From NCBI GenBank assembly GCA_029261855.1, contig JAJDAN010000028.1, positions 1 to 64,000 on the forward strand: DNA of 64,000 nucleotides. Reading direction: 5' to 3'. Position numbers and translations under genes: made by a program. The first letter of the stretch is position 1. Each line of letters starts with the position of its first letter. The notes under the pieces are model-generated. The model worked only from the letters and a program-made list of their open reading frames with translations. It was not told the DNA's origin and did no database searches. The stretch is from Deltaproteobacteria bacterium (GTDB lineage Bacteria; Myxococcota_A; UBA9160; UBA4427). Positions 39,713 to 61,900 of the stretch are shown here, one piece after another.

Positions 39713-42700
39713 TCACGAGGCGATCTGCCCCGAGGAACCGGGCTCGGCTGTGTTGCCTGGGCCGCTCCCGGGACTCGCGTCGAGCGGGTCGCCACTCTCG
39801 CGAGCCAGGTAGTGCTCCGCAGCCTTCCTTCCGAAGCGGAAGAACACGACGGGAGTGACCGCCATGTCCAGTAGCGTCGAACTCAAGAGCCCACCGATGA
39901 TCACGACCGCCACCGGGTACAGGATCTCCTTGCCGGGCTCACCGGCGGCCAACACCAGCGGAACCAGCGCGAAGCCGGAGACGAGGGCGGTCATCGTCAC
40001 CGGCACGAGCCGCTCGAGCGACCCGCGGATGATCATCGCGCGGTCGAAGCGCTCCCCTTCATCCTCCATCAGATGGAGATAGTGGGAGATCATCATGATG
40101 GTGTTTCGGGAGGCGATACCCGCAAGGGTGATGAGGCCGACCAGGGTCGCAACGGAGATCGTACCGACCATCGCATAGGTCAGAACGAGACCGCCGATGA
40201 AGGCGAGTGGGATGTTGAGCAGCACCTGGGCGACGATCATCACGCTTCGAAAGTGCGTGTAGAGCAGCAAGAACATCACTCCGAAGGTAAAGAGACTCAG
40301 CGTCGCAATGAGTCGCGTCGCGGCCTGCTGGCTCTCGAACTGGCCCTCGAAGCTCACGGAGTAGCCCGCCGGCAAGTCCACGGATGTGACCGCCGTTTGC
40401 ATGTCGGCCACGGTCGACCCGAGGTCTCGCCCCGAGACGTTCGCCGAAATGACGATGCGGCGGCGAACGTTCTCCCGGTTGATGATGTTCGGTCCCTTTG
40501 CATCCCGCACGTCGGCCAGCAAGGCGAGCGGGACCTTCTCTCCCGAAGGCGTGTCCACCAACATCTCAGCAAGTGACTCGATGTCTCCCCGAAATTGCTC
40601 CCCGTACCATACGTAGAGGTCGTAGGTCCGTTGCCCATCGAGAATTTGGCCGACGACGCGACCGTTGAGCGCTGTCTCGAGTTCTTCGGCCATCCCTCCC
40701 GCCGAGACGCCGTAGAGTTGCGCCCGTTCGCGATCGATTTCGATCCGGACCTGGGGAATCAGGACCTGCTTCTCGATCTGGAGATCCACGACTCCGGGCA
40801 CCCGGCCGAGCGCCACCTCGACCTCGGCGGCCTTCGCGCGCAGCAGGCCCAGATCGTCGCCGAAGATCTTGACGGCAACCTGGGCGCGCACGCCGGAAAG
40901 CATGTGGTCCAAACGATGGGAGATGGGCTGTCCGACATTGAGCGCGGTCCCGGGGATCTGCCCGAGCTTCTCCCGGATCTCCTCGAGGATCTCTTCCCGG
41001 GAGCGCTCCGACTCGCGGAGATCGACGTCGATCTCGGTGTAGTGGACACCCTCGGCATGCTCGTCGAGTTCGGCACGCCCCGTACGCCGACCGGTATGGT
41101 CGATCTCGAGGACCGTGAGAAGCAGCCGCTCTGCGATCGCCCCGGTCCGGTTCGACTCCTCGAGAGAAGTCCCGGGCGCGACGAGGATGTTGACCGTAGC
41201 GGTCCCCTCGTTGAACTCAGGCAGGAACTCCTTTCCCATCAGTGGGTAGAGGGCGAAGGACCCGACCACGAGAAGCGCGGTCGCAGCGAGGGACCAGCCC
41301 GGATTGCGCAGCGCCGGCTCGAGCAGGACTCGGCGATCGAAGTCCTTGAGGTGGCGAACGAGCCAGCTGTCGGATTCCGTTTCCATCCGCTTCATGCCGG
41401 GCAGGAGGTACGAGCAAAGGGCGGGAATCACGGTCACCGACACGACGAAGGACGCCGCCATCGCGACGATCGTGGCGACACCGATCGGCGCGAAGAGCCG
41501 GCCTTCGATGCCCGCCAGCCCGAATAGCGGTACGAATACGAGAATGACGAGGAGCGTCGCGTAGAGGATCGAGTTGCGGATTTCACCCGATGCGTCCGCG
41601 ATCACACGGAGGACGGGTCGCGGCACCGCCGCGTGGCGGTTCTCCCGTAGCCGCCTGAAGACGTTCTCGACGTCCACGATCGCATCGTCCACCACCATGC
41701 CGATGGCGACCGCGAGCCCGCCGAGCGTCATCGTGTTGATCGACAGACCCACGATGTCGAAGAAGATCACCGTGGTCACGAAGGAGAGCGGGATCGCCGT
41801 CAAGGTGATGAACGTCGTGCGAACATTCATCAGGAACAGGAACAAGATGATGACGACCATGATGCCGCCGTCGCGGATCGCTTCCTCGACGTTCGCGACC
41901 GCCGCCTCGATGAAGTTCGCCTGCTTGAAGAGGACGCGGACCTCCACATCCTGCGGAAGGTCCCGCTCGATCTCGGCGAGGGCTTCCTCGACGAGAGCCG
42001 AAAGGGCGACCGTATCGACACCGGGCTGCTTCTGTACCGAGATCATCACCGCAGGACGGCCGTCTACGCCGGCGTCCCCGCGCATGATCTGCTTGTCGAT
42101 TCGCAGGTCGGCCACATCGCCCAGCCGAATCGGAATGCCGTCCCGGACCGTGAGGACGGTCGCGCGAATCTCATCGAGGTCCGCGGTACGCGCGATGTTG
42201 CGCACCAGTGACTCCCGCGTCTCGGACGCGATGAATCCACCCGGCGTATTGATCTGGGAGCGCTCGGTCGCGTCCACGACATCCTGGAGGCTGACCCCAT
42301 AGGCGGCCATACGCTCCGGATCCGCGAGGACCTGGTGTTGCCGCACGCCCCCTCCAATCGGGATCACCTGCGACACGCCCGGCAGGGTCAGGAGCCGCTG
42401 CCGGATGACCCAGTCGGCGATGCTGCGCAGCTCCATCGGTGCCGTCGTCCCGTCGCGGCTCGAGACACCGATCAGCAGGATCTCTCCCATGATCGAGGAG
42501 ACGGGTCCCATGAACGGTGCAGCGCCCTCCGGCAGCTTCTCGGCGGCCAGCTGAAGGCGTTCCTGGACCAGCTGCCTCGCGCGGTAGATGTCCATTCCCC
42601 AGTCGAACTCGACGAACAGGATCGAGAGCCCGATTCCGGAGTTCGAACGCACCCGGAGCACGCCCGGCGCGCCGTTCACCGCGGTCTCGAGCGGCCAGGT

Positions 42701-42895
42701 GACGAGGGTCTCGACCTCTTCCGGGGCCAGACCCGGCGCCTCCGTGAGGATGGTGACGAGCGGTCGGTTGAGGTCTGGAAAGACGTCTACCGGAAGGTCC
42801 CGGATGACGAGAACGCCGTAGACCAGAACGATCACCGAGGCCGCAATGACGAAGAGGCGGTTTCGCAGCGAGAACTCGATCAGGCGGTTCAACAT
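39713..42895 (-). CDS. Heavy-metal efflux RND pump (CzcA/CusA family)
   Basis: An ATG at 42895, two bases after the adaptor gene's stop, gives 1,060 residues with the RND layout of two six-helix halves and two periplasmic loops. The TM4 motif reads GMVVDDAIVDVEN, which is neither the DFG-type of CzcA nor the GAMVDAAIVMVEN of CusA. The Met triad of Cu(I)-transporting CusA is absent (one site reads TATVNILVAPG). A divalent metal is the more likely substrate, but this is inference. It works with the adaptor and channel encoded just upstream. Confidence 0.92.
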   Translation of the reverse strand: MLNRLIEFSLRNRLFVIAASVIVLVYGVLVIRDLPVDVFPDLNRPLVTILTEAPGLAPEEVETLVTWPLETAVNGAPGVLRVRSNSGIGLSILFVEFDWGMDIYRARQLVQERLQLAAEKLPEGAAPFMGPVSSIMGEILLIGVSSRDGTTAPMELRSIADWVIRQRLLTLPGVSQVIPIGGGVRQHQVLADPERMAAYGVSLQDVVDATERSQINTPGGFIASETRESLVRNIARTADLDEIRATVLTVRDGIPIRLGDVADLRIDKQIMRGDAGVDGRPAVMISVQKQPGVDTVALSALVEEALAEIERDLPQDVEVRVLFKQANFIEAAVANVEEAIRDGGIMVVIILFLFLMNVRTTFITLTAIPLSFVTTVIFFDIVGLSINTMTLGGLAVAIGMVVDDAIVDVENVFRRLRENRHAAVPRPVLRVIADASGEIRNSILYATLLVILVFVPLFGLAGIEGRLFAPIGVATIVAMAASFVVSVTVIPALCSYLLPGMKRMETESDSWLVRHLKDFDRRVLLEPALRNPGWSLAATALLVVGSFALYPLMGKEFLPEFNEGTATVNILVAPGTSLEESNRTGAIAERLLLTVLEIDHTGRRTGRAELDEHAEGVHYTEIDVDLRESERSREEILEEIREKLGQIPGTALNVGQPISHRLDHMLSGVRAQVAVKIFGDDLGLLRAKAAEVEVALGRVPGVVDLQIEKQVLIPQVRIEIDRERAQLYGVSAGGMAEELETALNGRVVGQILDGQRTYDLYVWYGEQFRGDIESLAEMLVDTPSGEKVPLALLADVRDAKGPNIINRENVRRRIVISANVSGRDLGSTVADMQTAVTSVDLPAGYSVSFEGQFESQQAATRLIATLSLFTFGVMFLLLYTHFRSVMIVAQVLLNIPLAFIGGLVLTYAMVGTISVATLVGLITLAGIASRNTIMMISHYLHLMEDEGERFDRAMIIRGSLERLVPVTMTALVSGFALVPLVLAAGEPGKEILYPVAVVIIGGLLSSTLLDMAVTPVVFFRFGRKAAEHYLARESGDPLDASPGSGPGNTAEPGSSGQIAS

Positions 42896-42897
42896 GC

Positions 42898-43992
42898 CTA
42901 GCGAGCCTCGGCAGCGGTGCGGGCTCGCCGGCGTTTCCACAGCACCCCAACGGCAATCCCGACGACGACCAGGGCTGCAAGACCCCAGCGCGTAGTGGGT
43001 CCGGTCTCGGTCTCAGGGCGTGGCGCGGTGTCGATCTCGGGAGGAGCGCCCGGCTGCTCGGTCGGCGTGAGGTACTGAAGGGAGTAGTTCCCCTCGTCGA
43101 CGACGCGCTCGCCGGGAGAGAGCCCCTCCACTACCTCGACGAAGCGGTCATTGGAAACGCCGAGCAGGAGGGGGCGGCGCTCGAAGAGCTCGTCGTTCTC
43201 CTCGTCCTGCACGAACACGTAGAGCCGCCCCGCCTCGCCGAGGACCGCACGCCGCGGGATCGCCAGCGCAAACTCGGCCCCCCCGGTGATCAGGCTGAGA
43301 GTGGTGCGCATGTGCGGTCGCAGCCGGCCGTCCGTGTTGATCACGCGCACGTAGACGGCAAGCGAGCGACTGGCCGGATCGAGCTTGCCCCCGAGCCGCT
43401 CGACCACGCCGTCGAAGAACTCCTCCGGATAGCTCGGGACCCGCACCCGCACTCTCTGACCGATCGAAACCTGACCGATCTGGCCTTCAAAGACGCGACC
43501 GACCGCGAGCACCTCGCTGAGATTGGCCACCTCGAACAGGTGCCGATTCGGCTCCACCTCGTCGCCTACGACGACATGCCGGTCCGTGACCACACCTCCG
43601 ACCGGCGAGCCGTAGCGGGCGCGCGGGGGCGGATCGCCGAGCTGAAGACTCTCGACCTCGACGAGCTGCTGGCCCTTCTCTACGCGCTCTCCCTCTCGGG
43701 CGTAGACTGCCGACACCCGCCCGGGGATGCGACTCGACACGGCCCCCGAGCGGGCAGGGTCGGCCTGGATCTCGCCGATGACGCGGAGAGTCGTCTCGAC
43801 CGAACGCAGCTCGGCCTCCGCGAGCGTCAGCCCCAGATTGCGCTGCGCGACCTCCGAGACTTCGACCGGGCCGGCAACGGGACCCCCACCGGACTCACTG
43901 CCCGGAGCAGCCGCGTGGTCTTCACCCTCGTGTGCGAGGACGGCGCCGGCAAAACTCAACAGGACAGCGCTCGCAAGAAGAATGGACTTCAT
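42898..43992 (-). CDS. RND efflux periplasmic adaptor (CzcB/CusB family)
   Basis: The ATG at 43992 overlaps the outer-membrane channel gene's stop by one base and gives 364 residues. It has a signal peptide (VLAHEGEDHA), lipoyl/hairpin and beta-barrel regions (IPGRVSAVYAREGERVEKGQ), and a C-terminal transmembrane helix (LAALVVVGIAVGVLW), which is unusual for an adaptor. It bridges the inner-membrane pump and the outer-membrane channel. It has no heavy-metal-binding HMBD such as the one in the second system's adaptor. Confidence 0.9.
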   Translation of the reverse strand: MKSILLASAVLLSFAGAVLAHEGEDHAAAPGSESGGGPVAGPVEVSEVAQRNLGLTLAEAELRSVETTLRVIGEIQADPARSGAVSSRIPGRVSAVYAREGERVEKGQQLVEVESLQLGDPPPRARYGSPVGGVVTDRHVVVGDEVEPNRHLFEVANLSEVLAVGRVFEGQIGQVSIGQRVRVRVPSYPEEFFDGVVERLGGKLDPASRSLAVYVRVINTDGRLRPHMRTTLSLITGGAEFALAIPRRAVLGEAGRLYVFVQDEENDELFERRPLLLGVSNDRFVEVVEGLSPGERVVDEGNYSLQYLTPTEQPGAPPEIDTAPRPETETGPTTRWGLAALVVVGIAVGVLWKRRRARTAAEAR

Positions 43993-45296
43993 CACCGACT
44001 TCCTCCCCGGACTCGCGGGTCGTTCAGGTATGGGCTCGTTCCGGCCGCCACTTCCAGCGCGATGTGGGCCTGTCGCAGGTCGCCCAGGAGATCGAGGTAG
44101 AAGGCCCGGCTCTCGTTGTACTGGCGTTGCGCCTGCAGCAGCGCGGCGATGCCCACCAGGCCCTGGCGATAGCCCCGTTCGAGCAACGCCTGCGTGCGAG
44201 TCGCTTCCGGCAGGATCTGGTGGATGTAGGCGTCGACGCTCTCGCGAAGGGTCCGCACACGCGACTCGGCTGCTCGAACCTCTTCCTCGATGCGGAGAAC
44301 CAGCGCCTCCCGAGAGCGCCGCGATCGCCGCAGCTCTGCGGCCGCCGCCGCGACGCGGCCTTGCTGCCGGTTCCAGAGCGGAAGCGGCACGCGCAGGCCG
44401 AAGCGGAGGAGCGAGTCCTCCTCGGTGGCCACCGGACCGTCGAAGACCTGCCGGTCGAACTCGTAGCCGAACCCGACGGTCCAATCCTCCCAGGCCTCCG
44501 CCTGCGCCAGTCTCCGGTCGGCATCGGCTCGCTCGATCTGCTTCGACGCCGCGTCGAGATCGGGGCGTGCAGAGCTGGCGGTGGTGGTCGAGTCAGGAGG
44601 AGCTGCCAGCAGAATCGGACCGGGGTCGATCTCACCGACCGGGGTCAGCGGATCCCGTGGATTGCGCCCCATGAGCCGCGCCAGGCTACCCGCGGCGATC
44701 TCCCGGTCGCGCTTCAAGCGCTGCCCCTCCTGCTCGAGACGCAGACGCTCGATCCGCAGCAGACCTACCTCGGCGGCGGACGCCTCGGCGGCGGCGAAAC
44801 GTCCCTCGGTCGCCTGCTCGACCTCGAGAACCGACGCGGTCAGTTGACGATTGACGACGCGCTGCTCATCGAGCGTTCGGACCCGGTAGAACGCACTCTC
44901 GACGTCGGCGATCAGGCGCCGCACGAAGTCATGCACCTCGGCTTCCGCGATCGCCACGCCCTGCGAGGCCACGTCCTTCTCGCGGGCCAGGCGCGCGGTG
45001 ACTGGGAAGCGCTGCGCGAGGCCCACTGAAGCGGCCCGCTCGCCCGCGGACTCGAAGGCGAAGTCGTCCGCGTACGCGACTTCCAGCTCGGGGTTCTCGA
45101 GCCTACCGGCTTGCAGCCGAAGACCTCGCGCGACGTCGATCGTGGCGCGTGCCGCCTGAAGATCGCGATTGCCAGCAATCGCCTCGCGCACCGCGTCGTC
45201 GGCCGAGAAGGCGCGCGATGATGTCTCAGAACTCGCAGGGGCCGAAGCCCCGAAGATCAGCGCGGCCGCGAGGGCTGCGCTCGAAAGCAGTCGCAT
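43992..45296 (-). CDS. Outer-membrane efflux channel (CzcC/TolC family)
   Basis: This 434-residue protein starts after GGAGGTCCT. It has a signal peptide and two long coiled-coil halves characteristic of TolC-like channels (for example DVESAFYRVRTLDEQRVV and QGLVGIAALLQAQRQYNES). With the adaptor and pump it forms a tripartite metal efflux system. It is the first structural gene of the operon, after the small His-rich leader protein. Confidence 0.9.
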   Translation of the reverse strand: MRLLSSAALAAALIFGASAPASSETSSRAFSADDAVREAIAGNRDLQAARATIDVARGLRLQAGRLENPELEVAYADDFAFESAGERAASVGLAQRFPVTARLAREKDVASQGVAIAEAEVHDFVRRLIADVESAFYRVRTLDEQRVVNRQLTASVLEVEQATEGRFAAAEASAAEVGLLRIERLRLEQEGQRLKRDREIAAGSLARLMGRNPRDPLTPVGEIDPGPILLAAPPDSTTTASSARPDLDAASKQIERADADRRLAQAEAWEDWTVGFGYEFDRQVFDGPVATEEDSLLRFGLRVPLPLWNRQQGRVAAAAAELRRSRRSREALVLRIEEEVRAAESRVRTLRESVDAYIHQILPEATRTQALLERGYRQGLVGIAALLQAQRQYNESRAFYLDLLGDLRQAHIALEVAAGTSPYLNDPRVRGGSR

Positions 45297-46029: not shown

Positions 46030-46974
46030 TCACCGCAAGACTCCGGATTCCCGCAACTCCTGTGAGAGGCGTGTTGCCTCGCGGAGCTGCTCTTCGCTCA
46101 GCTTCGCCTCGAGGTCTTTGCGTAGCTCTCTTGCCTCGGGGACCCTGGCCTCCGCCAGGCTCGCCCAGACATAGGCGCGTACGGGATCCTGCCTCACACC
46201 ACGCCCCTGTTCGTAGGCGAAAGCCAGCGCCGCCTCGGCAAGGTGGTTGCCCGCGCTTGCGGCTTCCCGGTACCAGCGGAGGGCCTCGGCTTCATCCCGC
46301 TGAACGCCCTCGCCACTCGCGTACATGTGGCCGAGATGAAGCTGCGCCGCCGCCTCTCCGCCTGCGGCCGCCTCGTGGAACCAGAGGACCGCGCCGGCCT
46401 CATCACCGGGGACGCCGATTCCCCACGGATACATGTGGCCGATGTTGCTTCCGGCGTCCCGATGGCCGTGGTTGCGAGGCTCTTTGATCCACCTCAACGT
46501 GCGCTCATCGTCGGCCATCGATTCGGTGTACCCGAACATGTGGCCGAGATGCGGCTGCATCCGCGGGTCCCAGCCCTCGACCGATTTCCGATACCACTCG
46601 AGGGCGAGGCCGTCGTCCCTCTCGACGCCGTGCCCGAAGACGTACATCACCGCGAGGTTCCTCTGCGCTTCGGGGTTCCCCGCCTCTGCGGCCGTCCGGT
46701 ACCAGCGCACGGCCTCGCCGTCGTCGATGGTGACTCCATCGCCGTGTGCATAGACGTTCCCCAAACGGACCTGAGCCTCAGAACTCCCCCCTGTGGCGTC
46801 TTCGAGAAGGCGACTCACTGAGTCCGGAGTCAACCTCGCGGCGGCCTCACCCTGAACCTGACGTGGTCCGAGATGCTCCGAGGTACCGGGGGCGGAGGGG
46901 GCTCCGGTACAGCCCAGAGCCAGGCTCAGGACGGCGGGTATCGCTGCGATTCGTCTCGGCTGTCGCCAGGGCAT
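46030..46974 (-). CDS. Sel1-repeat lipoprotein
   Basis: This 314-residue protein has a lipobox (LALGC, near residue 22) and about five to six Sel1-type repeats of about 36 residues, for example AQVRLGNVYAHGDGV, AQRNLAVMYVFGHGV and AQLHLGHMYASGEGV. Sel1 repeats are TPR-like scaffolds for protein binding. The protein is likely periplasmic or outer-membrane anchored. It is separated from the His-rich leader gene by about 200 bases and may not share its promoter. Confidence 0.88.
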   Translation of the reverse strand: MPWRQPRRIAAIPAVLSLALGCTGAPSAPGTSEHLGPRQVQGEAAARLTPDSVSRLLEDATGGSSEAQVRLGNVYAHGDGVTIDDGEAVRWYRTAAEAGNPEAQRNLAVMYVFGHGVERDDGLALEWYRKSVEGWDPRMQPHLGHMFGYTESMADDERTLRWIKEPRNHGHRDAGSNIGHMYPWGIGVPGDEAGAVLWFHEAAAGGEAAAQLHLGHMYASGEGVQRDEAEALRWYREAASAGNHLAEAALAFAYEQGRGVRQDPVRAYVWASLAEARVPEARELRKDLEAKLSEEQLREATRLSQELRESGVLR

Positions 46975-47047
46975 TCAACGGCTCCCCAGTCAATACTTGC
47001 TATCGGAGGACTACGGCCGGAAACCGGTTGGGTGACCGCGAACCCGA

Positions 47048-47935
47048 TCAGCTCGCCAGGGCCGTCAGGGAGGACGCAATGAGGTTCGATACGTCGATCC
47101 CGTTCGTTGGATGGGGCACGCTGTTCGTCGTCACGATGCGACCGGCGCCCGCGGCGACCAGCTCGGAATGCGCCGTTCCCGCGAAGATTCCGTGCACGCC
47201 GACACAGACAGGGGGAGGTAGGCCTGCCACCGCTAGACAGCGGACGGCCTGGACCATCGTCCGGCCGGAGGACACGATGTCGTCCAGAACAACCGGCGTC
47301 CGGTCCCGGTAGCCGCCGACATCCGGGAGGGAGATCTCGACATCGCGATCTCCACGCCGGAGCTTCGTCGACACCACGTAGGGCGAGCGACTCGGCCGCG
47401 CGACATCCGCGACCCACTGCGCACTCTCCTCGTCCGGCCCAACGAGCAAGGGACGCTCTACGTTCGCCGCGATCCATGAGGCGAGAAGCGGCGCTGCGTG
47501 CAGGACCCAGGTCCGGATGCGGTAGAGCTCTCCCAACGTGCGATACCGGTGCAAGTGGGGATCGAGCGTCACGAGCCAGTCGAAGCGCGAGGAGAGGAGG
47601 TCGGCGAAGATCCGCGAGGTGACTGCTTCGCCGTCCTGAAACCGGCGGTCCTGGCGCATGTACGCGAGGTAGGGCGCAACGAGCCCGACCCGAGCCGCAC
47701 CGAATTCGCGCACGGTATCGGCGGCAAAGAGGAGCGGCAGCAGCTTGGCATCCGGCCGGTCGAGTGTGCACACGAGGAAGACATTCTTGCGGCAGCAATC
47801 TGCCTGTACACGCAGGTAGGTCTCTCCGTCCGGGAAGGTCCGGGTTCCCAGGGACGCCACTTCCCAGCGCGTTCTTTGCGCGAGGCTAGCGGCGAGCGGC
47901 TCGTTGCCCGGCAGCGGTAGAACGAGGGAGGTCAC
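47048..47935 (-). CDS. Ribose-phosphate pyrophosphokinase-like protein
   Basis: This 295-residue protein has the PRPP-synthetase motifs: FPDGETYLRV (ATP/Mg), PYLAYMRQDRRFQDGE, a catalytic-loop STKLRRGD and the PRPP-binding VVLDDIVSSGRTM. Standard enzymes make PRPP from ribose 5-phosphate and ATP. It is shorter than the usual 310-residue PrsA and its GTG start overlaps the phosphorylase stop by 4 bases. Such a pairing suggests nucleotide salvage rather than general PRPP supply. Confidence 0.88.
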   Translation of the reverse strand: MTSLVLPLPGNEPLAASLAQRTRWEVASLGTRTFPDGETYLRVQADCCRKNVFLVCTLDRPDAKLLPLLFAADTVREFGAARVGLVAPYLAYMRQDRRFQDGEAVTSRIFADLLSSRFDWLVTLDPHLHRYRTLGELYRIRTWVLHAAPLLASWIAANVERPLLVGPDEESAQWVADVARPSRSPYVVSTKLRRGDRDVEISLPDVGGYRDRTPVVLDDIVSSGRTMVQAVRCLAVAGLPPPVCVGVHGIFAGTAHSELVAAGAGRIVTTNSVPHPTNGIDVSNLIASSLTALAS

Positions 47936-49437
47936 GGACCGGTCGTCATTCGCAGGAGGTCCCGATTCGCGTCGAAGAAGCTCCGCGCGTATGCGAGCTC
48001 CCCGGGAGTCTCGGCGTGGAGCTCGAACAGGGTTTGCCCCACCTGGACCTCGTCACCGAGTCTCGCGAGGAGCCGGATTCCGGCCGCTGGCGAGCTCGGC
48101 GCGCCGGCGAGCTTCGCGGCACGAGCCAAGCGCCGATTGTCGATCGCCGAGATTGTGCCCCCAGCGGAAGCAAGGAAATCCCAGCGATGCCCCGAGACGG
48201 GCGGCTCTCTCATCCCGCCCTGTGCCTCGAGGATCGCCTGGAGCTTTCGCCAGGCGATCCCGCTCTGGAGAGTTTCCTCGGCCAGGGCGCCACCGGCACC
48301 GCGCGGGCAGTGTGCGACCGCTTCGAGCACCTCACCCGCGAGCGTGACAGCACGCCGCCGCAGGTCTTCGGGCGCGTCCGCGTCGCAGCGCATGACAGCG
48401 AGTACGTCCCGTGCCTCGAGTGCGGGACCAATTCCGCGACCGACGGGTTGGCTGCCGTCGGTCAGCACGACCCGCAGCTCGAGCCCGAACTCTCGCGCGA
48501 CCTGAGTCAGCAGTCGGCTCAGGGCACTCGCAGCGATCGGATCGCGCACCTTCGCCGAAGGGCCGACGGGAATGTCGATCACCACATGTGTCGACCCCGC
48601 CGCCACCTTCTTGGAAAGGATCGATGCGACGAGCTGGGCTTCACTGTCGATATCGAGCGCTCGCTCGACGCGGATCAGGGTGTCATCGACCGGGCTGAGC
48701 TGGACCGAGCCACCCCAGACGAGACAGCCTCCGTGGCGATCCACGACATTCCTCATCGCGGAGAGATCGAGGTTCACCGGGGCCATCGTCGCCACGGTAT
48801 CGGCCGTCCCCGCCGGAGAGGTGATCGCGCGCGAGGATGTCTTCGGGATGCACACGCCCCGTGCCGCGACGATCGCGACCACGATCGGGGTCGTTCGGTT
48901 CCCGGGGAGACCGCCCACGCAATGCTTGTCCGCAACCACTTCGCGATCCCAGTGGAGTCGCTCTCCCACGGCGACCATCTCGTGCGTCAGCGCCACGACC
49001 TCTCGCATGGTCATTCCGGCAGAGGTGCAGGCGGTGAGAAGGGCGGCGATCTCGACGTCGGTATAGCGACCCGCAGCGATATCGTTCACGATCGCAGCGA
49101 TGTCCTCGGCCTCGAGTGTCCGGCCGTGGATCTTGGCGCGGACGGGTCGCAAGGAGGCGACCGTAGGCGCATGAGAGAAACGGGCCGTCGGCCGGGGCCG
49201 GTTCGCCAGCCGCTCCCATGCAGACTCCGATAGCCCGGCCTCGCCCGGCTTCAGCAATTCCCCGCGCACCACGTTGAGGGTTGCCAGTCCAGACGCCTCG
49301 TCCGTTTCGATCAGAACACGCGAGTGCGCGGTGAACCCCTCGGACCGACAAACGTCGCAGTCGGAACGCATGTACACGACGGGCTCCTGGTGAGTGTCGA
49401 TCCCGAGGCGAACCAAACGCAGTCGCTGTCCTGCCAT
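47932..49437 (-). CDS. AMP/thymidine phosphorylase family protein (NMP phosphorylase-like)
   Basis: This 501-residue protein has an extra N-terminal domain (about 1-90), as in archaeal AMP phosphorylases, then a phosphorylase core with KHCVGGLPGNRTTPIV (VGGxPGN rather than the TGGVGD of thymidine phosphorylase) and SRAITSPAGTADTVATM. The C-terminal domain holds a QVGQTLFELH hairpin. AMP phosphorylase releases a base and makes ribose 1,5-bisphosphate. It starts upstream of the PRPP-synthetase-like gene and both are likely in one transcript. Confidence 0.87.
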   Translation of the reverse strand: MAGQRLRLVRLGIDTHQEPVVYMRSDCDVCRSEGFTAHSRVLIETDEASGLATLNVVRGELLKPGEAGLSESAWERLANRPRPTARFSHAPTVASLRPVRAKIHGRTLEAEDIAAIVNDIAAGRYTDVEIAALLTACTSAGMTMREVVALTHEMVAVGERLHWDREVVADKHCVGGLPGNRTTPIVVAIVAARGVCIPKTSSRAITSPAGTADTVATMAPVNLDLSAMRNVVDRHGGCLVWGGSVQLSPVDDTLIRVERALDIDSEAQLVASILSKKVAAGSTHVVIDIPVGPSAKVRDPIAASALSRLLTQVAREFGLELRVVLTDGSQPVGRGIGPALEARDVLAVMRCDADAPEDLRRRAVTLAGEVLEAVAHCPRGAGGALAEETLQSGIAWRKLQAILEAQGGMREPPVSGHRWDFLASAGGTISAIDNRRLARAAKLAGAPSSPAAGIRLLARLGDEVQVGQTLFELHAETPGELAYARSFFDANRDLLRMTTGP

Positions 49438-49554
49438 CGCTCGGGACTACGTGTGAGACCAAGCCAGGGTGACGTCCGCCCCAGGCCCGACTCGCCGCGA
49501 GGGCCCTGATGCCAGCGCGATGTCACCTCGGCGTCCCCGGGCCCGTATCGCCGG

Positions 49555-50001
49555 ATGATGGGACCCATGCGCCGTCATCGAACCAGCCAATTGGGGGTAT
49601 CCGTAGCGCTCGCCCTGTCGATTGGACTCGCGATCGCCGTGGCTTCGCGCGAGACAGAACCCGAACGAGTACAACGTCTGGGCGCGGCTCTTTACGACCG
49701 GCACTGTGGCTCCTGCCACGGCGCCGAGCTGGAGGGCGAGGCGAACTGGAAGATGCGGCTTCCCGACGGTAGCTATCCCGCGCCTCCCCACGACGCCAAC
49801 GGTCACACATGGCACCACGACGACGAGTACCTGTTCTCCGTCACCCGGGACGGAGGTCGGCCGAGGGGACCCGACTGGCCGAGCGGAATGCCCGGCTTCC
49901 GCCAAAGCCTGACGGACCAGGAGATCCGGTCGATTCTCGCGTTCATCAAGAGCACCTGGCCGGATCCGATCCGGGCGAGTCAGGCGAAACGAAATCGCTA
50001 G
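49555..50001 (+). CDS. Monohaem c-type cytochrome
   Basis: This 148-residue protein has an N-terminal signal (VSVALALSIGLAIAV), one CGSCH haem site near 52-56 and a distal Met region (PSGMPGFRQSLTD). It is a class I cytochrome c of the periplasm, probably an electron shuttle. ATG 49555 is used; ATG 49567 is an alternative with a better signal peptide. It is divergent from the phosphorylase gene with 117 bases between starts. Confidence 0.85.
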   Translation: MMGPMRRHRTSQLGVSVALALSIGLAIAVASRETEPERVQRLGAALYDRHCGSCHGAELEGEANWKMRLPDGSYPAPPHDANGHTWHHDDEYLFSVTRDGGRPRGPDWPSGMPGFRQSLTDQEIRSILAFIKSTWPDPIRASQAKRNR

Positions 50002-52912: not shown

Positions 52913-53491
52913 TCAGCGCGCGGATACGCTGACAGGAGACTCGACGAGTGTCGCGCGAAGGCGCTGGATCGCACGGGAGGCCATCTTCTTGACAGCGTCC
53001 GCCGACTTCCCGAGATGCTCCGCGAGCTCGGGGTAGCCGACCCCCTCGATCTTTGCAGACAGCACCACGTAGCGCTCCTCGGGAGAGAGCATCGCGAGCA
53101 GCTGGTCGACCTGCTCGAGGTCCGCAAGCTGCTGTTCGCTTCCAGCGCCCTTGGTGTGGGGATCGCGGTCGGCCATGGGAACCTCGCAGCGGCGAAAGGC
53201 GCGGCGGTGGTCGTCGATGAGGAGCCGGTTGGCGATCTGAAAGAACCATGGGGTGAACGGACGGCTGGGCTCGTACCGAGCCCGCGCACCGTGGATCCGC
53301 AGGAACAACTCCTGGTACAGATCCTCGGCGCGTTGGGGAGATCCCGTCCGACGGAGGAAGAAGACGTATGCCCGGGGCTCGTAGCGACGAAAGAGCTCGT
53401 CGAAGGCTTCCACGTCTCCCGCGGCGTAGCGAGCCATGAGTACTTCATCCTGTTCTTTCCGGCGTACCGCAGCTTGCGCTGTCATGCGCAT
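52913..53491 (-). CDS. ECF-type RNA polymerase sigma factor
   Basis: This 192-residue protein starts at ATG 53491 after GGGAGGGCATCGAG. Region 2 (FDELFRRYEPRAYVFFLRRT and RAEDLYQELFLRIH) and region 4 (LSPEERYVVLSAKIEG, then YPELAEHLGKSADAVKKMA) are intact, with no region 3. It probably responds to an envelope or metal stress and is controlled by the membrane protein downstream. It is divergent from the antiporter gene. Confidence 0.92.
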   Translation of the reverse strand: MRMTAQAAVRRKEQDEVLMARYAAGDVEAFDELFRRYEPRAYVFFLRRTGSPQRAEDLYQELFLRIHGARARYEPSRPFTPWFFQIANRLLIDDHRRAFRRCEVPMADRDPHTKGAGSEQQLADLEQVDQLLAMLSPEERYVVLSAKIEGVGYPELAEHLGKSADAVKKMASRAIQRLRATLVESPVSVSAR

Positions 53492-53706: not shown

Positions 53707-53717
53707 AGGAGGTGATC

Positions 53718-54899
53718 GTGGAACTTCATTGGCTGCTCCCCGTCGTTCTGATCACCGCCAAGCTTCTCGGGGGCGCGGCCCGACGGTGCGGCTTCCCTGC
53801 GGTGGTCGGAGAAATCACTGCTGGGATCGTACTCGGACCTTCCCTCCTCGGTCTGGTCGAGCTGCCGGCACATGGGGAGACGACCTCGCCCCTTCTCGCG
53901 CTCGCACAGATCGGGCTCTGCGCCCTCCTGTTTCGCATCGGTCTCGAAACGGACCTCGAGAACGCCCGCCGGATGATCGGCCGGGCAGCCGCGCTCGGGA
54001 TGGTCGGGATGCTGCTACCGCTGCTCCTCGGCGCGCTCGCGGCTGCCGCGCTGGGTGTCTCGCTACTTCCCGCGCTCTTCGTCGGCGCCACGCTCACCGC
54101 CACGAGCATCGGCGTTACCGCCGCAGTTCTCGAAGAGCTCGAGGCCAGTGCAAGCCGAGCCGCGACCCTGATCCTCGGAGCCGCGGTCGTCGATGACGTC
54201 CTCGGGCTGATCCTGCTGGCGGCCCTGATCGGAGTCAGCTCCGCGAACGGGGCCGTCGGCCTCGCGCTCGCAGTAGCGGTCGGACAGGCGGTGCTCTTCC
54301 TGGTCGTGGCGCTCTCGCTCGGTCGCCCGCTCACCGAGGCAACGCTGCGGCTGACGCGCTGGACCCGTTCACAGGGCACGCTCTTCGCGCTCGTGTTCAG
54401 CGCCTTGCTTCTGACGGCCTGGGTCGCAAAGCTCGTCGGCTTGGAGTTCATCATTGGTGCCTACGCGGCGGGTCTCGCGCTCGCACGACACCCCGAACGC
54501 GAATGGCTCCGGTCAGAGTTCCGGCCGGTCGTCGAGCTCTTCACCCCGGTGTTCTTCGTGCTCGTCGGCAGCGCGATCGCGATCGACAGCTTCTCGACGA
54601 CGAGCGCCTCGGGCCGCCTCACGCTGTCGCTCGCCGGCGTCCTCTTCGTCGCCGCGGTCGCCGGCAAGCTTTTCGCCCCGATGGCCATCCCGAAGCTCGG
54701 CGCCCCACCACTCGCGGTGGGAAGCGCCCTCGTGCCGCGCGGCGAGGTTGGGCTCGTCTTTGCCCAGGTGGGCCTCGGCGAGGGGGTACTCTCCCCCGAC
54801 CTCTTCGCAGCCCTCGCTTTGGTGATCATCGCGACGACTCTGGTGGGCCCCTTGCTTCTGCGCCGGTTCTGGCCCACCGACCCGCCGCTCGTCGCGTGA
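53718..54899 (+). CDS. Monovalent cation:proton antiporter (CPA2/KefB type)
   Basis: This 393-residue protein has about 12 transmembrane helices. GTG 53718 is chosen because AGGAGG lies 5 bases upstream and overlaps the alternative GTG 53712. The CPA2 motif AAVVDDVLGLILL carries two adjacent Asp residues that bind cations. GEITAGIVLGPSLLG and PRGEVGLVFAQVGLG are also conserved. It exchanges Na+ or K+ for H+ at the inner membrane. No regulatory NAD-binding tail is present. Confidence 0.9.
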   Translation: MELHWLLPVVLITAKLLGGAARRCGFPAVVGEITAGIVLGPSLLGLVELPAHGETTSPLLALAQIGLCALLFRIGLETDLENARRMIGRAAALGMVGMLLPLLLGALAAAALGVSLLPALFVGATLTATSIGVTAAVLEELEASASRAATLILGAAVVDDVLGLILLAALIGVSSANGAVGLALAVAVGQAVLFLVVALSLGRPLTEATLRLTRWTRSQGTLFALVFSALLLTAWVAKLVGLEFIIGAYAAGLALARHPEREWLRSEFRPVVELFTPVFFVLVGSAIAIDSFSTTSASGRLTLSLAGVLFVAAVAGKLFAPMAIPKLGAPPLAVGSALVPRGEVGLVFAQVGLGEGVLSPDLFAALALVIIATTLVGPLLLRRFWPTDPPLVA

Positions 54900-56122: not shown

Positions 56123-56309
56123 CCGCCGCGCCAGACCAGCTACGGGTCAGCTCGGTCAAAAGTGACACGTCCCGTCACGAGTGGGCGCGCAGCACGTATT
56201 CTTGGACCTGTCGCGCTGGACGAAACCGTCTGTAGCTTCGATTTTCTCTCGATCGCCGGGGAGTGCGAGTTCTCCGGCGTCGGAGCCAACTGCGGACGGG
56301 AGCGAACGG

Positions 56310-57602
56310 ATGAGGGGACGACCGGCGCGTGCTTCCTGGTGGATGCCGCTGGCGGCGAGCCTGCTACTGCTCGGCGCTGCCGACGGCACGTTCGAAACGC
56401 CCCCCGATCCCCTACCGCTGAGTTGGTGTCTGGAGCGCGCCCGCACTACGAATCCGTCCTTGGACATCGCCCGCTCGGCCGCCGAGGCGGCGAGCACGCG
56501 CGTGTATCCAGCAGGCGCCCTTCCGGACCCGCGCTTTCGCTACGAGCTGAGCAACATCCCCACCGGCGACTGGGACCTCGACTCGACACCGCTTTCCGGT
56601 CAGCAGCTCGGCTTGAATCAGCACCTGCCCTTTCCCGGGTTGCTCGGGCGGCGGCGTGACGCCGCAGAGTCCGCGGCGGAAGCCTCCAAGGAAGAGCTGG
56701 GAGACGAGTCCCGCCAGGTCGAAGCCGCGGTCGAGCGGGCCTGGGTCGAGCTCGGCTTCGCGCAGCGGGCACTCGATGTCACGCGAGAGAACGTCGGCCT
56801 GCTGCGCCAACTCGCGAAGATCGCCGAGGCGAAGTACCGGGTGGGCGAAGGACTGCAGCAGGACGTGATTCGCGCGCAGGTCGCGCTCACCGAGCTGCTG
56901 GACGAGGAGCTTCGCCGAGAATCCGCGATCCGGTCCGCAGAAGCGGGGCTCGCCAATCTTCTCGACCTGAGATTCGAGAACTCCTTGCCGCGAACCACTT
57001 CTCCGCACGAGCCGGCGCCGCTTCCGAACATGGCTGCGCTGCTCGACGATCTCGAGAAAACGAGCCCGCGTCTTCGCGCGCTCGCGCAACGAGTCGACGA
57101 GGCCGAGCATCGCAAACGCGTGGCAGAGCTCGAAGGGTATCCGGACTTCGACCTGGGCGTCGGCTACCGGATCCGCCAGAAAGCGAGGGGCGACCCGGTG
57201 AACGGAGACGACTTCGTCGGTGCGAGCGTTACCATTCGCCTGCCGATCGACCGTCACAAGTGGAGCGAGCACGTTGCGGAACAAGGTGCGCTCCTGCGCC
57301 GAAGCCAGGCGGAGTATCGGATGTTCCGGTCGGCTCTGCGTGACCGCCTTCGTTCGAGCTACGCCGAGCTGGAACGCGCGGACCGGGAAATCGAGCTGCT
57401 CGAGGGCGGCCTCGTCCCGCAGGCGCGCCAGTCCCTGGACTCGAGTCGCTCGGGGTACTCGGTGGACAAGGTCGACTTTCTGAGCCTGATCGACAGCCAG
57501 GTTCGGCTGCTGAACGCGCAGCTGCGCCTCGAGCGCGCGATCGCGGACCGGCGCAGCGCGTTCGCGGCTGTCGAGGCGACCGTAGGAGCATCGTTGCGAT
57601 GA
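56310..57602 (+). CDS. Outer-membrane channel of a CusCBA-type pump (TolC family)
   Basis: An ATG at 56310 after GGGAGCG gives 430 residues with a signal peptide (PLAASLLLLGAADG) and two TolC coiled-coil repeats. Typical phrases are PLSWCLERARTTNPSL, VERAWVELGFAQRALD and VDFLSLIDSQVRLLNAQLRL. It would form the outer-membrane exit duct for the Cu/Ag pump encoded downstream. The adaptor gene follows with a 4-base overlap. Confidence 0.9.
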   Translation: MRGRPARASWWMPLAASLLLLGAADGTFETPPDPLPLSWCLERARTTNPSLDIARSAAEAASTRVYPAGALPDPRFRYELSNIPTGDWDLDSTPLSGQQLGLNQHLPFPGLLGRRRDAAESAAEASKEELGDESRQVEAAVERAWVELGFAQRALDVTRENVGLLRQLAKIAEAKYRVGEGLQQDVIRAQVALTELLDEELRRESAIRSAEAGLANLLDLRFENSLPRTTSPHEPAPLPNMAALLDDLEKTSPRLRALAQRVDEAEHRKRVAELEGYPDFDLGVGYRIRQKARGDPVNGDDFVGASVTIRLPIDRHKWSEHVAEQGALLRRSQAEYRMFRSALRDRLRSSYAELERADREIELLEGGLVPQARQSLDSSRSGYSVDKVDFLSLIDSQVRLLNAQLRLERAIADRRSAFAAVEATVGASLR

Positions 57603-58981
57603 AGATCGGGCACTGGATCATGCTGGCGGTGCTACTCGCAGCCGTCGGGGCCGCGGGCTGGTGGGCTGGCACCCAGAGGACGCAAGGTCCTCAAACGGAG
57701 ACGGAGTCCGCGAGCGACGGTCCCTGCCCCGGTGGTGCGAAGCCCGCGTACTGGAAGGCGCCTATGGACCCGAGCTACATCCGAGACTCGCCGGGCAAGA
57801 GCCCGATGGGCATGGACATGGTGCCCGTCTGCCCCGGTGCCGCCCCGGTAGGCAGCGACGTCCAGATCGATCCCTCACTGGTCCAGAGCATGGGCGTGCG
57901 CGCCGCCCCGGTGGAGCGTCGCGACCTTGGGCGGCGCGTCCGCACGCTGGGTCGGGTCGACTACGACGAGCGCCTCGTCGCTCACGTGCATACGAAGATC
58001 CAGGGATGGATCGAGAAGCTCTCCGTCGAGTACGAAGGAGAGATGGTCAAGAAAGGACAGCCTCTGCTCGACATCTACTCGCCCGAGCTCGTCTCGACCC
58101 AGGAGGAGCTGCTCCTGGCTTCGCGCTATCGCGACTCGACCAGCGGGAGTCGATTCGAGGACATCTCACGGGGGGGCGAGGATCTATTCGAAGCGACGCG
58201 ACGCCGTCTCGAACTCTGGGACATCCCCGACCGCGACATCGAGCGCTTGCTGGAAACCGGCACGGTCCGCAAGAACCTCACCCTGTACGCGCCGACCGGG
58301 GGAGTCGTCACGAAGCTGATGGCGCGCGAGGGGATGGAGGTCGCGCCCAATCACAATCTCTACACGATTGCCGACCTCTCTCGTGTATGGGTCTATGCAG
58401 ACGTCTACGAGTACGAGCTGCCCTGGGTGAAAGAGGGTCAGCGGGCGGTCATCGACCTGAGCTACCTGCCGGGCCGCAAGTTCGAGGGCACCGTGACCTA
58501 CGTGTATCCGTTCCTGGAACCGAAGACGCGTACGGCCCGCGTCCGGATCGAACTCGCGAACCTGGACATGCTCTTCAAGCCGGATATGTACGCGAACGTC
58601 ACGATCGAGACCGAGACTCGCAAAGACGTTCTCGCGGTACCGGACGAGGCGATCATCCGGTCCGGCCGGCGCACGCTGGCCGTGGTCGCCATGGGAGAGG
58701 GAAGCTTCTCGCCGCGTGAAGTGGTCCTGGGGATCGACTCGGGTGACGGCTGGGTAGAGGTGCAGAGCGGGCTCGCCGAGGGCGACAGCGTCGTGACCTC
58801 AGGCCAGTTCTTGATCGACAGCGAGAGCAAGCTGCGCGAAGCCGTCCAGAAGATGCTCTCGCCAGGCCATAGCGCGACGGGAGAGGGCGAGGGGTCCGCC
58901 GACGCCGACCCCCACGCTGGACATTCGACGGGTGACGCTCCACCGACTCCCGGGGAGCACGTAGGGCACGGCAAGGAGTAG
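57599..58981 (+). CDS. cusB: Periplasmic adaptor of a CusCBA-type pump with heavy-metal-binding domain
   Basis: This 460-residue protein has an N-terminal signal/anchor and then a heavy-metal-binding domain (YWKAPMDPSYIRDSPGKSP and MGMDMVPV) with Met residues, as in CusB-type proteins that take Cu(I) or Ag(I). Alpha-hairpin, lipoyl and beta-barrel regions follow (IYSPELVSTQEELLLASR and ADVYEYELPWVKEGQ). A Gly/His/Asp-rich tail (DPHAGHSTGD) may also bind metal. It overlaps the channel gene and is 3 bases from the pump gene. Confidence 0.9.
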   Translation: MKIGHWIMLAVLLAAVGAAGWWAGTQRTQGPQTETESASDGPCPGGAKPAYWKAPMDPSYIRDSPGKSPMGMDMVPVCPGAAPVGSDVQIDPSLVQSMGVRAAPVERRDLGRRVRTLGRVDYDERLVAHVHTKIQGWIEKLSVEYEGEMVKKGQPLLDIYSPELVSTQEELLLASRYRDSTSGSRFEDISRGGEDLFEATRRRLELWDIPDRDIERLLETGTVRKNLTLYAPTGGVVTKLMAREGMEVAPNHNLYTIADLSRVWVYADVYEYELPWVKEGQRAVIDLSYLPGRKFEGTVTYVYPFLEPKTRTARVRIELANLDMLFKPDMYANVTIETETRKDVLAVPDEAIIRSGRRTLAVVAMGEGSFSPREVVLGIDSGDGWVEVQSGLAEGDSVVTSGQFLIDSESKLREAVQKMLSPGHSATGEGEGSADADPHAGHSTGDAPPTPGEHVGHGKE

Positions 58982-58984
58982 CGG

Positions 58985-61900
58985 ATGCTGCGAAAGATCA
59001 TCGAGGGCTCCGCGCGCAACCCGCTGCTCGTCGGCCTCGGGACGGTGGTCCTGATCGTGTGGGGCGCTTACGCCACCTACAACATGCCGCTCGACGCGAT
59101 CCCGGACCTCTCGGACGTCCAGGTGATCGTGTTCACCGAGTACCCCGGACAGGCGCCACAGGTCGTCGAAGACCAGGTCACCTACCCGCTCACGACCTCG
59201 ATGCTCGCCGTCCCCTTCGCCAAGACCGTCCGGGGCTACTCGTTCTTCGGCTTCTCGTTCGTCTACGTGATCTTCGAAGACGGAACGGATCTGTACTGGG
59301 CGCGCTCGCGTGTTCTCGAGTATCTCAACTTCGTAGCGGGACGCCTCCCACCAGGTGTGACTCCCAGCCTCGGTCCGGATGCAACAGGCGTCGGCTGGGT
59401 GTACGAGTACGCTCTGGTAGACCGGACGGGAGCGCACGATCTCGCCGAGCTCCGGTCGATTCAAGATTGGTATCTTCGATACGAGCTGCAGACGGTTCCC
59501 GGTGTCGCGGAAGTCGCTTCGTTGGGCGGCTTCGTCCGGCAATACCAGGTCGAGGTCGACCCGAACGCGCTCGCCGCCTACGGCATCCCACTCGGCCAGG
59601 TTCACCGCGCGATCCAGCGAAGCAACAGCGACGTCGGTGGGCGCCTGATCGAGATGGCCGAGACCGAGTTCATGGTTCGTGGACGGGGGTACATCGAATC
59701 GATCGACGACATCGATCAGATTGCGATCGGAACCGACGGGCGCGGCACGCCGGTCCTCCTTCGCGATGTCGCCAACGTGCACATCGGGCCGGAGTTGCGG
59801 CGCGGACTGGCCGACCTGAACGGCGAGGGCGAAGTCGCGTCGGGCATCGTCGTGATGCGCTTCGGCGAGAATGCGCTCGAGGTGATTCGGAACGTGAAGG
59901 CCAAGCTCGAAACACTCAAGGCAGGACTTCCCGAGGGAGTGGAGATCGTCGCGGTCTACGACCGCGCCGGATTGATCGAGAGGGCGATCAAGACCCTTCG
60001 CGAGAAGCTCCTCGAGGAAATCGGCATCGTCGCGCTGGTCTGTGTGATCTTCCTCTTTCACCTGCGAAGTGCCTTTGTCGCGGTGCTGACCCTGCCCTTG
60101 GGCATCCTGATTTCCATCATCATCATGTACCACCAGGGCATCAACGCGAACATCATGTCCCTCGGAGGCATAGCGATCGCGATCGGTGCGATGGTCGACG
60201 CTGCCATCGTCATGGTCGAGAACGCACACAAGCACCTCGAACGCGATCAGGGCGAGAAGCCGAGAACCGAGATCCTGATCGAGGCCGCCGCGGAGGTCGG
60301 CCCCTCGCTCTTCTTCTCGCTGTTGATCATCACCGTCTCGTTCATTCCCGTCTTCAGTCTGCAGGCACAGGAAGGGCGCCTCTTCTCTCCGCTGGCCTTC
60401 ACGAAGACCTACGCGATGGCGGGGGCGGCGATGTTGGCGATCACGGTCGTGCCGCTACTGATGATCTGGTTCATCCGAGGCAAGATCATCGCGGAGAACC
60501 GCAACCCGCTGAACCGCTTTCTCTTGTGGCTCTATGCTCCGGTCATCCGCTTCGTTCTCAGGCAAAAGGCCATCGTGCTCGTGGGAGCGCTCGTGATCCT
60601 GCTGGCGACCCTGGTCCCGCTGCGTCAACTCGGGTCGGAATTCATGCCGCCGCTGAACGAGGGCGACCTCCTCTACATGCCGACGACCCTTCCGGGCATT
60701 TCGATCACGAAGGCGCGAGAGATCCTTCAGCAAACCGACCGCATGATCCGCCAGTTTCCTGAGGTCCATCATGTCTTCGGCAAGATCGGTCGAGCCGAGA
60801 CGGCCACCGACCCGGCGCCGCTTTCGATGATCGAGACCACGATCACGCTCAAGCCACCCGAGGAATGGCGGCCGGGCATGACGATCCAGAAGTTGATCGC
60901 CGAGCTCGACCAGGCGGTTCGCCTGCCAGGCGTGACGAACGCCTGGACGATGCCGATCAAGACCCGCATCGACATGCTCTCCACCGGAATCAAGACACCG
61001 GTCGGTCTCAAGGTGGCCGGGCCGGACCTAACGACGCTCCAGGCGCTCGGGCAGGAGATCGAGGCCATCCTGCGAGAGGAACCCGGCACGCTCAGCGTGT
61101 TCGCCGAACGGGTGGTCGGCGGGAACTACCTCGATTTCGAGATCGACCGACGCGAGATCGCCCGCTACGGCCTGACCGTGGGTGACGTTCAGGACGTGAT
61201 CCAGATGGCGATCGGAGGTCGCAACGTGACCTTCACCGTCGAGGGTCTGGAGCGCTACCCCGTAAATCTCCGATACTCGCGGGAGCTGCGGGACAACCTG
61301 ACGATGCTCCGACGCGTCCTCGTGCCGACGCCGACGGGCGCGCAGATACCCCTCGAGCAGCTCGCACGGCTCGAGATCAAGAAGGGCCCACCCTCGATCA
61401 AGAGCGAGAACGCGCGACTCAACGCATGGATCTACGTGGACCTCGACGGCGTCGACGTCGGCACCTGGGTGGCCCGGGCGAAGACGACGCTCGAACGCGA
61501 GCTCGAGCTGCCGGCCGGATACAGCCTCTTCTGGAGTGGGCAGTACGAGTACATGGAGCGCGCTGCCCAGCGCCTGCAAATCGTCGTACCCATCACCCTC
61601 GGCGTCATCTTCCTGTTGCTGTATCTCAACTTCCGCAATCTCTCGGACACACTGATCGTGATGATGACGCTCCCCTTTGGCCTGGTCGGGGGCGTCTGGC
61701 TGCTGTGGACGCTCGACTACGATCTGAGCGTTGCGGTCGGTGTCGGGTTCATCGCCTTGGCGGGTGTCTCGGCGGAGCTCGGGGTGATTCTGCTCGTCTT
61801 CCTCGAAGAGGCTGTCTCGCGCTTCAAGCGAGAGGGTCGGCTCGAAACGCGTGCGGACCTTCAAGAGGCCGTGCGCGAGGGTGCCGGTCTCCGCGTGCGC

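Follow-up and report, generated by a model that had tools for sequence, protein, structure and literature searches.

A conserved bacterial gene pair for an NMP-phosphorylase-like and a PRPP-synthetase-like enzyme as a candidate module of nucleotide turnover

Nucleoside monophosphate (NMP) phosphorylases are known from archaea, where the ribose 1,5-bisphosphate (R15P) formed by them goes on to ribulose-1,5-bisphosphate carboxylase/oxygenase (RuBisCO). The adenosine monophosphate (AMP) phosphorylase of T. kodakarensis (TK0352; structures 4ga4, 4ga5 and 4ga6) converts NMPs into R15P and was earlier misannotated as a thymidine phosphorylase (PMC8376864, PMC9700705). In bacteria, the conversion of R15P to phosphoribosyl pyrophosphate (PRPP) is a known reaction, catalyzed by E. 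coli PhnN in the phosphonate route (PMC9700705). The DNA analyzed here (the window) comprises positions 1 to 64,000 of the forward strand of contig JAJDAN010000028.1 from a Deltaproteobacteria bacterium (GCA_029261855.1; assembly 98.6% complete by the tool's own figure). It carries two minus-strand genes, that of a putative NMP phosphorylase (P0002) upstream and that of a PRPP-synthetase-like enzyme (P0001) downstream. An original prediction, made from the sequence, had proposed that the two open reading frames (ORFs) overlap and are coupled, and that R15P released by the first enzyme might be turned into PRPP. Both ORFs were found, and the overlap of 4 bp (GTGA) is real.

P0002 passes the profiles NF003338 (656.7, cut-off 434) and TIGR02645 (569.6, cut-off 434.6), both of which carry the name "thymidine phosphorylase". 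Its closest solved relative is the AMP phosphorylase of T. kodakarensis. The AlphaFold model of P0002 (predicted local distance difference test, pLDDT, 90.8) has 4ga5 as its top Foldseek match (template modelling score, TM, 0.90), with model residues 4-498 aligned on chain residues 1-493 (Z 48.3, root-mean-square deviation 2.5 over 488 residues). The near-full-length, three-domain fold of the AMP/NMP phosphorylases is reproduced in this alignment, including the N-terminal domain of about 92 residues ahead of the nucleoside-phosphorylase core, which had been predicted as an extra domain. Among the chains listed, this domain is covered solely by 4ga5, and all others start at residues 91-96. The AMP-phosphorylase motif VGGxPGN, also part of the original prediction, is present as VGGLPGNR (residues 174-181).

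Residues were compared in an alignment of 98 bacterial sequences of this group, 13 nucleoside phosphorylases of the same phylum and the T. kodakarensis stretch. At 25 discriminating positions the T. kodakarensis residue is found in at least 95% of the 98 bacterial sequences and in at most 10% of the 13 nucleoside phosphorylases, although for two of these positions (S70, S95) the alignment has no residue in the majority of the 13. P0002 and the archaeal enzyme are alike at all 25, many of which fall in two loops present in both, GG-x-PGN and KTSSRAITS. P178, N180 and T182 are common to both enzymes and rare or absent in the nucleoside phosphorylases, while K199, T200, S202, A204, I205, T206, S207, A209 and A212 match the archaeal residues and differ from those of the 13. 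The predicted grouping with AMP/NMP phosphorylases is thus borne out by family scores, fold and residues, which, together with the misannotated archaeal relative, argue strongly that P0002 belongs to a separate, bacterial branch of NMP phosphorylases rather than being a thymidine phosphorylase. This branch occurs in Proteobacteria, Bacteroidota, metagenome-assembled genomes (MAGs) of other groups and plasmids, and is held in databases as thymidine phosphorylase.

Alternatively, the enzyme could be a nucleoside (thymidine or pyrimidine) phosphorylase, as the database name says and as plasmid records annotate it ("thymidine phosphorylase family protein"). K171 is in keeping with this, being found in 13/13 nucleoside enzymes and replaced in the T. 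kodakarensis enzyme. However, P0002 lies far under the nucleoside-phosphorylase cut-offs (131.6 vs. 570.7 for TIGR02643, 192.9 vs. 409.05 for TIGR02644, and 139 vs. 559), and both the 25 positions and the N-terminal domain side with AMP phosphorylase, which makes this alternative very unlikely.

The N-terminal domain also carries a DCxVCRSEG-type motif (C27-x-x-C30, window 49348-49359), which may be a metal or redox site. Within the main bacterial group, 75 of 89 sequences have Cys at both places and the remaining 14 have Ser/Cys; C30 is missing in 9/9 phylum sequences belonging to another phosphorylase clade.

P0001 passes two PRPP synthetase models, NF005537 (407.8, cut-off 322) and TIGR01251 (179.2, cut-off 113). 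Its AlphaFold model (pLDDT 94.8) has the archaeal PRPP synthetase 3mbi as the top Foldseek match (TM 0.91), and the fold is that of class III (3mbi, 1u9y, 4twb) and class I PRPP synthetases. The solved structures found among its relatives are all of other PRPP synthetases, none being of the PRK07199 subfamily to which P0001 belongs. The PhnN model TIGR02322 is not among the 11 NCBIfam families that match P0001 at E 0.001.

The synthetase alignment comprised 92 subfamily sequences (P0001, 76 stretches of more than 750 bases from 89 named or plasmid loci, and a choice of 15 sequences of the phylum), 23 class I sequences from related genomes (recognised by motif in 25 loci, two of which dropped out) and three archaeal enzymes. 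K191, R193, D168, D218, D219, H127, R94, Q95, D96, F34, D36 and E38 are the same in at least 95% of the subfamily and at least 90% of the class I sequences. The pair K194/R196, essential in human PRPP synthetase since K194A and R196A are inactive (PMC4363470), is kept as K191/R193. Residues F35, D37, H131, D170, D220, D221 and T228 of the E. coli enzyme bind ATP, Mg and ribose 5-phosphate (R5P), the last three being R5P ligands (PMC9232217). With E. coli numbering mapped by motif, the sequence itself lying outside the alignment, all these places are kept in the subfamily; D218, D219 and T226 of P0001 occupy those of D220, D221 and T228, and the place of T225 holds S in P0001 and S or T in the others.

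The difference from class I and class III enzymes lies in the loop of residues 168-174, where D-x-G-G-x-x-R becomes D-x-E-S-x-Q-W: E170 is found in 92/92, S171 in 91/92 and W, in place of R (or F), in 91/92 subfamily sequences. The equivalent of E170-S171 is G-G in 23/23 class I sequences and G-A or G-G in the three archaeal enzymes. P0001 therefore lacks the glycine pair that typically follows the catalytic aspartate of PRPP synthetases (168-171), but stays in the broad family, because this pair is not known to be required. A second mark of the subfamily, which has its own family model (NF005537), is a DPHLHR motif with a 3-residue insertion. The E-S loop would lie beside the R5P C1 site and could be compatible with a different C1 group. 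Subfamily members that lack a neighboring phosphorylase gene have it equally, and it is therefore no signature of coupling.

Since nearly every R5P/ATP-binding residue is kept, ordinary PRPP chemistry is the simpler reading of P0001, and on residue evidence ordinary synthesis appears more likely than a different C1 chemistry. Synthesis of PRPP from R5P and ATP, whose product AMP would be a substrate of the phosphorylase, is given an even chance as the second step. The direct making or use of R15P in this step is doubtful, and another or no catalytic role is unlikely.

Ordinary chemistry could serve ordinary base salvage, in which a plain PRPP synthetase provides PRPP, made from R5P and ATP, for the re-use of the released bases, while phosphatases or mutases encoded outside the cluster remove R15P. 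The conserved catalytic and substrate residues (compare PMC9232217, PMC4363470) and the fold match to PRPP synthetases are in favor of it, as is a 2026 preprint according to which many extra bacterial PRPP synthetase classes keep the catalytic residues, classes II and IV often existing alongside class I (PMC13252144). PRK07199 may be one of these classes. Against base salvage, a class I PRPP synthetase is already encoded elsewhere in the genome (contig C70, 474 bits), and for this reason a divergent second copy overlapping a phosphorylase gene asks for an explanation of its own. Its chances are put at a little under even. A third PRPP-synthetase-like fragment is found at the start of another contig of the same genome (C71; L003:29-463).

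The fate of R15P was approached by genome searches. RuBisCO has no match in the whole genome (PF02788 and PF00016, 0 hits each). The R15P isomerase model TIGR00511 has a 202-bit match (cut-off 314) to a protein that is MtnA (455 bits, cut-off 271), and the single PhnN match, of 36 bits against a cut-off of 156, reads as guanylate kinase. The original prediction had noticed the lack of RuBisCO and R15P isomerase in the window; this is confirmed, and the genome adds none over cut-off. A further 45 phosphorylase-carrying genomes, hand-picked from 80 named loci and including many incomplete MAGs, were surveyed. R15P isomerase was over cut-off in 0/45 of them, with sub-threshold matches of 93-215 bits in 22/45 (compare the 202 bits of MtnA above); PhnN was over cut-off in 8/45 and the RuBisCO large chain was present in 12/45. 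Neither of the two R15P-using enzymes sought, R15P isomerase and PhnN, was found in 37/45, so in most of these genomes R15P, if made, has no obvious user, although other users may exist.

The archaeal NMP shunt, or pentose bisphosphate pathway, has the same proposed first step, the conversion of NMP to R15P. Unlike in archaea, no R15P isomerase or RuBisCO partner was found in this genome, and with R15P isomerase in 0/45 relatives there is no sign of this shunt; here a PRPP-synthetase relative takes the linked place of the two enzymes. The PhnN route differs as well, because P0001 has no PhnN match and PhnN is not over cut-off in its own genome or in 37/45 relatives. The lack of an obvious user makes the predicted conversion of R15P to PRPP worth testing. 

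The synthetase-like enzyme could act directly on R15P, either as R15P to PRPP or as R5P + ADP <-> R15P + AMP, with R15P as a private intermediate of the pair. In the latter reaction the C1 hydroxyl would attack the beta-phosphate just as in PRPP synthesis, and no gamma-phosphate is required. The tight linkage with frequent 4-bp overlap (see below) and the scarcity of R15P isomerase and PhnN are consistent with direct use. In addition, E-S stands two and three positions after the aspartate equivalent to E. coli D170 in essentially all 92 sequences; by motif-mapped numbering D170 binds Mg together with the C1-C3 hydroxyls of R5P, and ADP and R5P have been observed at the same time in the active site of the E. 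coli enzyme (PMC9232217). On the other hand, the E-S loop is shared by members with no phosphorylase, the R5P, ATP and Mg ligands are kept, and an effect of E-S on ligands is only presumed. Direct action on R15P is considered rather unlikely, and its more specific form, in which PRK07199 is an R15P enzyme (R5P + ADP <-> R15P + AMP) that has lost the gamma-phosphate place and is paired with NMP phosphorylase, quite unlikely. If it were true, this pair and the beta-CASP ribonuclease (RNase) would connect RNA, nucleotides and R5P in bacteria by a route that needs no PRPP, at low oxygen and on metal-resistance plasmids.

The pair is real, conserved and widespread, and is shared with many other genomes. 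The named loci are the 80 best among at least 588 stretches, a selection that favors close relatives and includes one genome from the order to which the window belongs (L074; G262). In 66/80 of these loci the synthetase-like gene lies next to the phosphorylase gene, and in 71/80 it is within 7 kb, the chance of finding a given single gene within 7 kb on either side being about 0.3% (for an assumed 4.4-Mb genome, relatedness ignored). Of the 66 adjacent pairs, 39 could share exactly 4 bp (2/66 unresolvable), hence the overlap exceeds chance. The coupling predicted from the overlap is in this sense supported by a conserved link. Across 377 sampled genomes of the phylum, phosphorylase is over cut-off at 15 places in 14 genomes, and an NF005537 gene is adjacent at 11 of the 15, with phosphorylase first in seven and synthetase first in four. 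In three genomes with phosphorylase (G262, G238, G007) there is no NF005537 match at E 1e-65, and in a fourth (G291) the NF005537 gene lies on a different contig.

A third partner makes the two-gene view of the original prediction incomplete. A beta-CASP RNase gene is near in 54/80 named loci (47 on the same strand, seven on the other; 40 directly adjacent). This "MBL fold" neighbor has beta-CASP and RMMBL domains in 4/4 proteins scanned, and the Variovorax representative is closest to RNase TTHA0252. One homologue, 54% identical to the Variovorax protein, is encoded elsewhere in the present genome (C3:132100), directly after a universal stress protein gene. Five arrangements are found: RNase-phosphorylase-synthetase, which is the commonest; phosphorylase-synthetase-RNase (L071, L115, L120, L136, L137, L151); synthetase-phosphoketolase-RNase-phosphorylase (L068, L113, L122, L123); RNase-phosphorylase-phosphoketolase-synthetase (L080, L081); and synthetase-phosphorylase-RNase (L170, L173). 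Linkage kept through such rearrangements argues for selection. 

The phosphoketolase-like gene is near the unit in 18/80 named loci (one weak, 94 bits). Two such genes, annotated as "xylulose 5-phosphate 3-epimerase" (L069:9415-11895, L068:3211-5598), are distant phosphoketolase relatives, scoring 136.5 bits (cut-off 777) and 143.2 bits (cut-off 962); PF03894 and PF09364 are found in the L069 protein.

A similar unit has been described at the level of annotation and expression in Bradyrhizobium diazoefficiens, where bll3117-bll3116-bll3115 (thymidine phosphorylase family, ribose-phosphate pyrophosphokinase and MBL hydrolase, with family identity taken from annotation alone) is one predicted operon with a FixK2 box at -74 (PMC9104804). 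In the delta-fixK2 mutant bll3117 is down 6.6-fold and bll3115 30.6-fold, bll3116 being named only in the operon column (PMC9104804). At 0.5% O2, bll3117, bll3116 and bll3115 are induced with protein log2 values of 2.9, 4.4 and 2.1 and transcript values of 15.4, 7.7 and 5.1 (PMC6515984). No function for the trio is proposed in the available text of PMC9104804 or PMC6515984. The genes are thus already annotated and their expression already reported, and what is uncharacterised is the combination of enzymes, each of a known kind. The literature search returned neither biochemistry of the bacterial branch nor a proposal of the trio as a pathway; as subscription papers were little covered, this negative carries little weight.

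The best reading of the locus, held with rather better than even confidence, is a module of RNA and NMP turnover that passes ribose to the R5P/PRPP pool; we infer its reactions and its physiology from family, fold, residues and gene order. NMPs would be supplied by RNA decay, for which the beta-CASP RNase could be responsible. In the first step the phosphorylase would catalyze NMP + Pi <-> base + R15P, as family, fold and residues strongly suggest. The synthetase-like enzyme, presumably produced from the same transcript by coupled translation, would then, as an active PRPP-synthetase relative, exchange R5P with a C1-activated form, and ribose would thereby pass between nucleotides and the R5P/PRPP pool. 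The module could serve under stress and low oxygen, and perhaps under metal stress. If the linked PRPP-synthetase relative closes the R15P gap, an overlooked bacterial route of nucleotide recycling would be at hand, and the rhizobial low-oxygen regulon would gain a concrete reaction. Overall, the original interpretation is partly supported, in the kind of phosphorylase, the conserved link and the lack of RuBisCO and R15P isomerase in window and genome.

Pyrophosphate (PPi) could be used instead of phosphate, according to NMP + PPi -> PRPP + base, with the partner working in reverse (PRPP + AMP -> R5P + ATP) and RNA serving as a low-oxygen energy reserve. P0002 shares its fold with the PRPP-using anthranilate phosphoribosyltransferase in structure comparison, phosphoketolase-like neighbors occur as noted above, and the FixK2 table that lists the B. 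diazoefficiens trio also includes a phosphoketolase-acetate kinase operon (PMC9104804). The active-site loops of P0002, however, match those of the Pi-using enzyme and there is no hint of PPi in the sequence; this variant is extremely improbable.

A number of observations weigh against the turnover module. P0002 scores 447.7 with the AMP_phos model TIGR03327, under its cut-off of 535, and is therefore kept out of this equivalog. Its identity to the T. kodakarensis enzyme is 37-42%. The archaeal protein departs from the bacterial group at 19 positions that the group conserves, among them K171 (V163 in T. kodakarensis), R181, T183, P208, Q268 and H284; a 20th group-conserved position, G34, lies outside the T. 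kodakarensis stretch. The synthetase-like gene is missing from 9/80 named loci (two of the nine contigs end less than 1 kb upstream of the phosphorylase gene), and 21 of 32 NF005537 places in the phylum sample are not beside a phosphorylase gene. The RNase gene is not adjacent to the pair in this genome and is near in only two (L170, L173) of nine phylum phosphorylase loci (L165-L173, flanks of about 6 kb). No match to the phosphoketolase-like gene was obtained in this genome. In window 46900-49700 no sigma-70 promoter or terminator was found, and in the 64 kb there are two one-mismatch matches to an FNR/FixK box (2.03 expected), neither upstream of the pair. In B. diazoefficiens bll3117-bll3115 are unchanged in bacteroids and unmarked as direct FixK2 targets (PMC6515984). 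Measured activity for either subfamily was not found in the literature consulted.

The origin of the pair was considered on the basis of relatedness and composition. The window phosphorylase forms a group with sequences from one Acidobacteria MAG and one MAG of its own order, separate from the nine phylum sequences of the other clade, and the one other genome of the window's genus in the sample has no phosphorylase match. This fits transfer, whereas base composition shows no sign of it (67.2% GC in the pair vs. 66.8% in the window). Among plasmids, nine of 172 records were examined; genes for heavy-metal ATPase, multicopper oxidase, copper-binding or resistance-nodulation-division (RND) proteins are nearby in five loci (L065, L066, L068, L070, L071), no such genes are shown in three (L067, L069, L072), and L073 is unannotated. 

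Coordinates of the gene pair and of its main features are collected in Table 1.

Table 1. Features of the gene pair (window positions)
Feature	Position	Strand	Remarks	Basis
NMP-phosphorylase-like gene (P0002), NF003338 / TIGR02645	47932..49437	-	501 aa, ATG start	
PRPP-synthetase-like gene (P0001), NF005537 / PRK07199	47048..47935	-	295 aa, GTG start	
4-bp start-stop overlap GTGA	47932..47935	-	phosphorylase stop TGA inside GTGA	sequence
P0002 residues 1-92, N-terminal domain	49162..49437	-	with C27-x-x-C30	aligns with AMP phosphorylase N-terminal domain
P0002 residues 170-183, DKHCVGGLPGNRTT	48889..48930	-	putative phosphate-site motif with the P178/N180 AMP-phosphorylase feature	
P0002 residues 198-213, PKTSSRAITSPAGTAD	48799..48846	-	AMP-phosphorylase-type loop	
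P0001 residues 168-174, D-E-E-S-A-Q-W	47414..47434	-	altered loop, predicted beside the R5P C1 site	alignment
P0001 K191-L192-R193	47357..47365	-	predicted catalytic flexible-loop pair	alignment
P0001 residues 218-226, D-D-I-V-S-S-G-R-T	47258..47284	-	predicted R5P loop	alignment

Two RND efflux systems (39713-45296 and 56181-62113), which have metal-type adaptors and outer-membrane channels, lie on either side of the pair. Other genes of the window encode a sigma factor (52913-53491), a Na/H exchanger (53712-54899) and TerB (62178-62627). A Sel1-repeat protein with weak likeness to MerG (108 bits, cut-off 350) is encoded directly downstream of the pair on the same strand (46030-46974).

Stand-alone PRK07199 genes occur at 11 places (L154-L164; phylum families f18, f33 and f25) with no phosphorylase or RNase gene in the fetched flanks and no partner shared by all 11, flanking ORFs being common only to four f18 genomes (L158, L159, L160, L162). 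Ten flanking ORFs from five of these loci were compared with Pfam: eight belong to families with no evident link to nucleotide turnover and two have no match. In Pontibacter, a protein with ATP-cone and Mrr-like domains is encoded directly upstream of the unit (L067:1972-2817), and BLAST matches to it precede the unit in Cyclobacterium (L134) and Aequorivita (L147).

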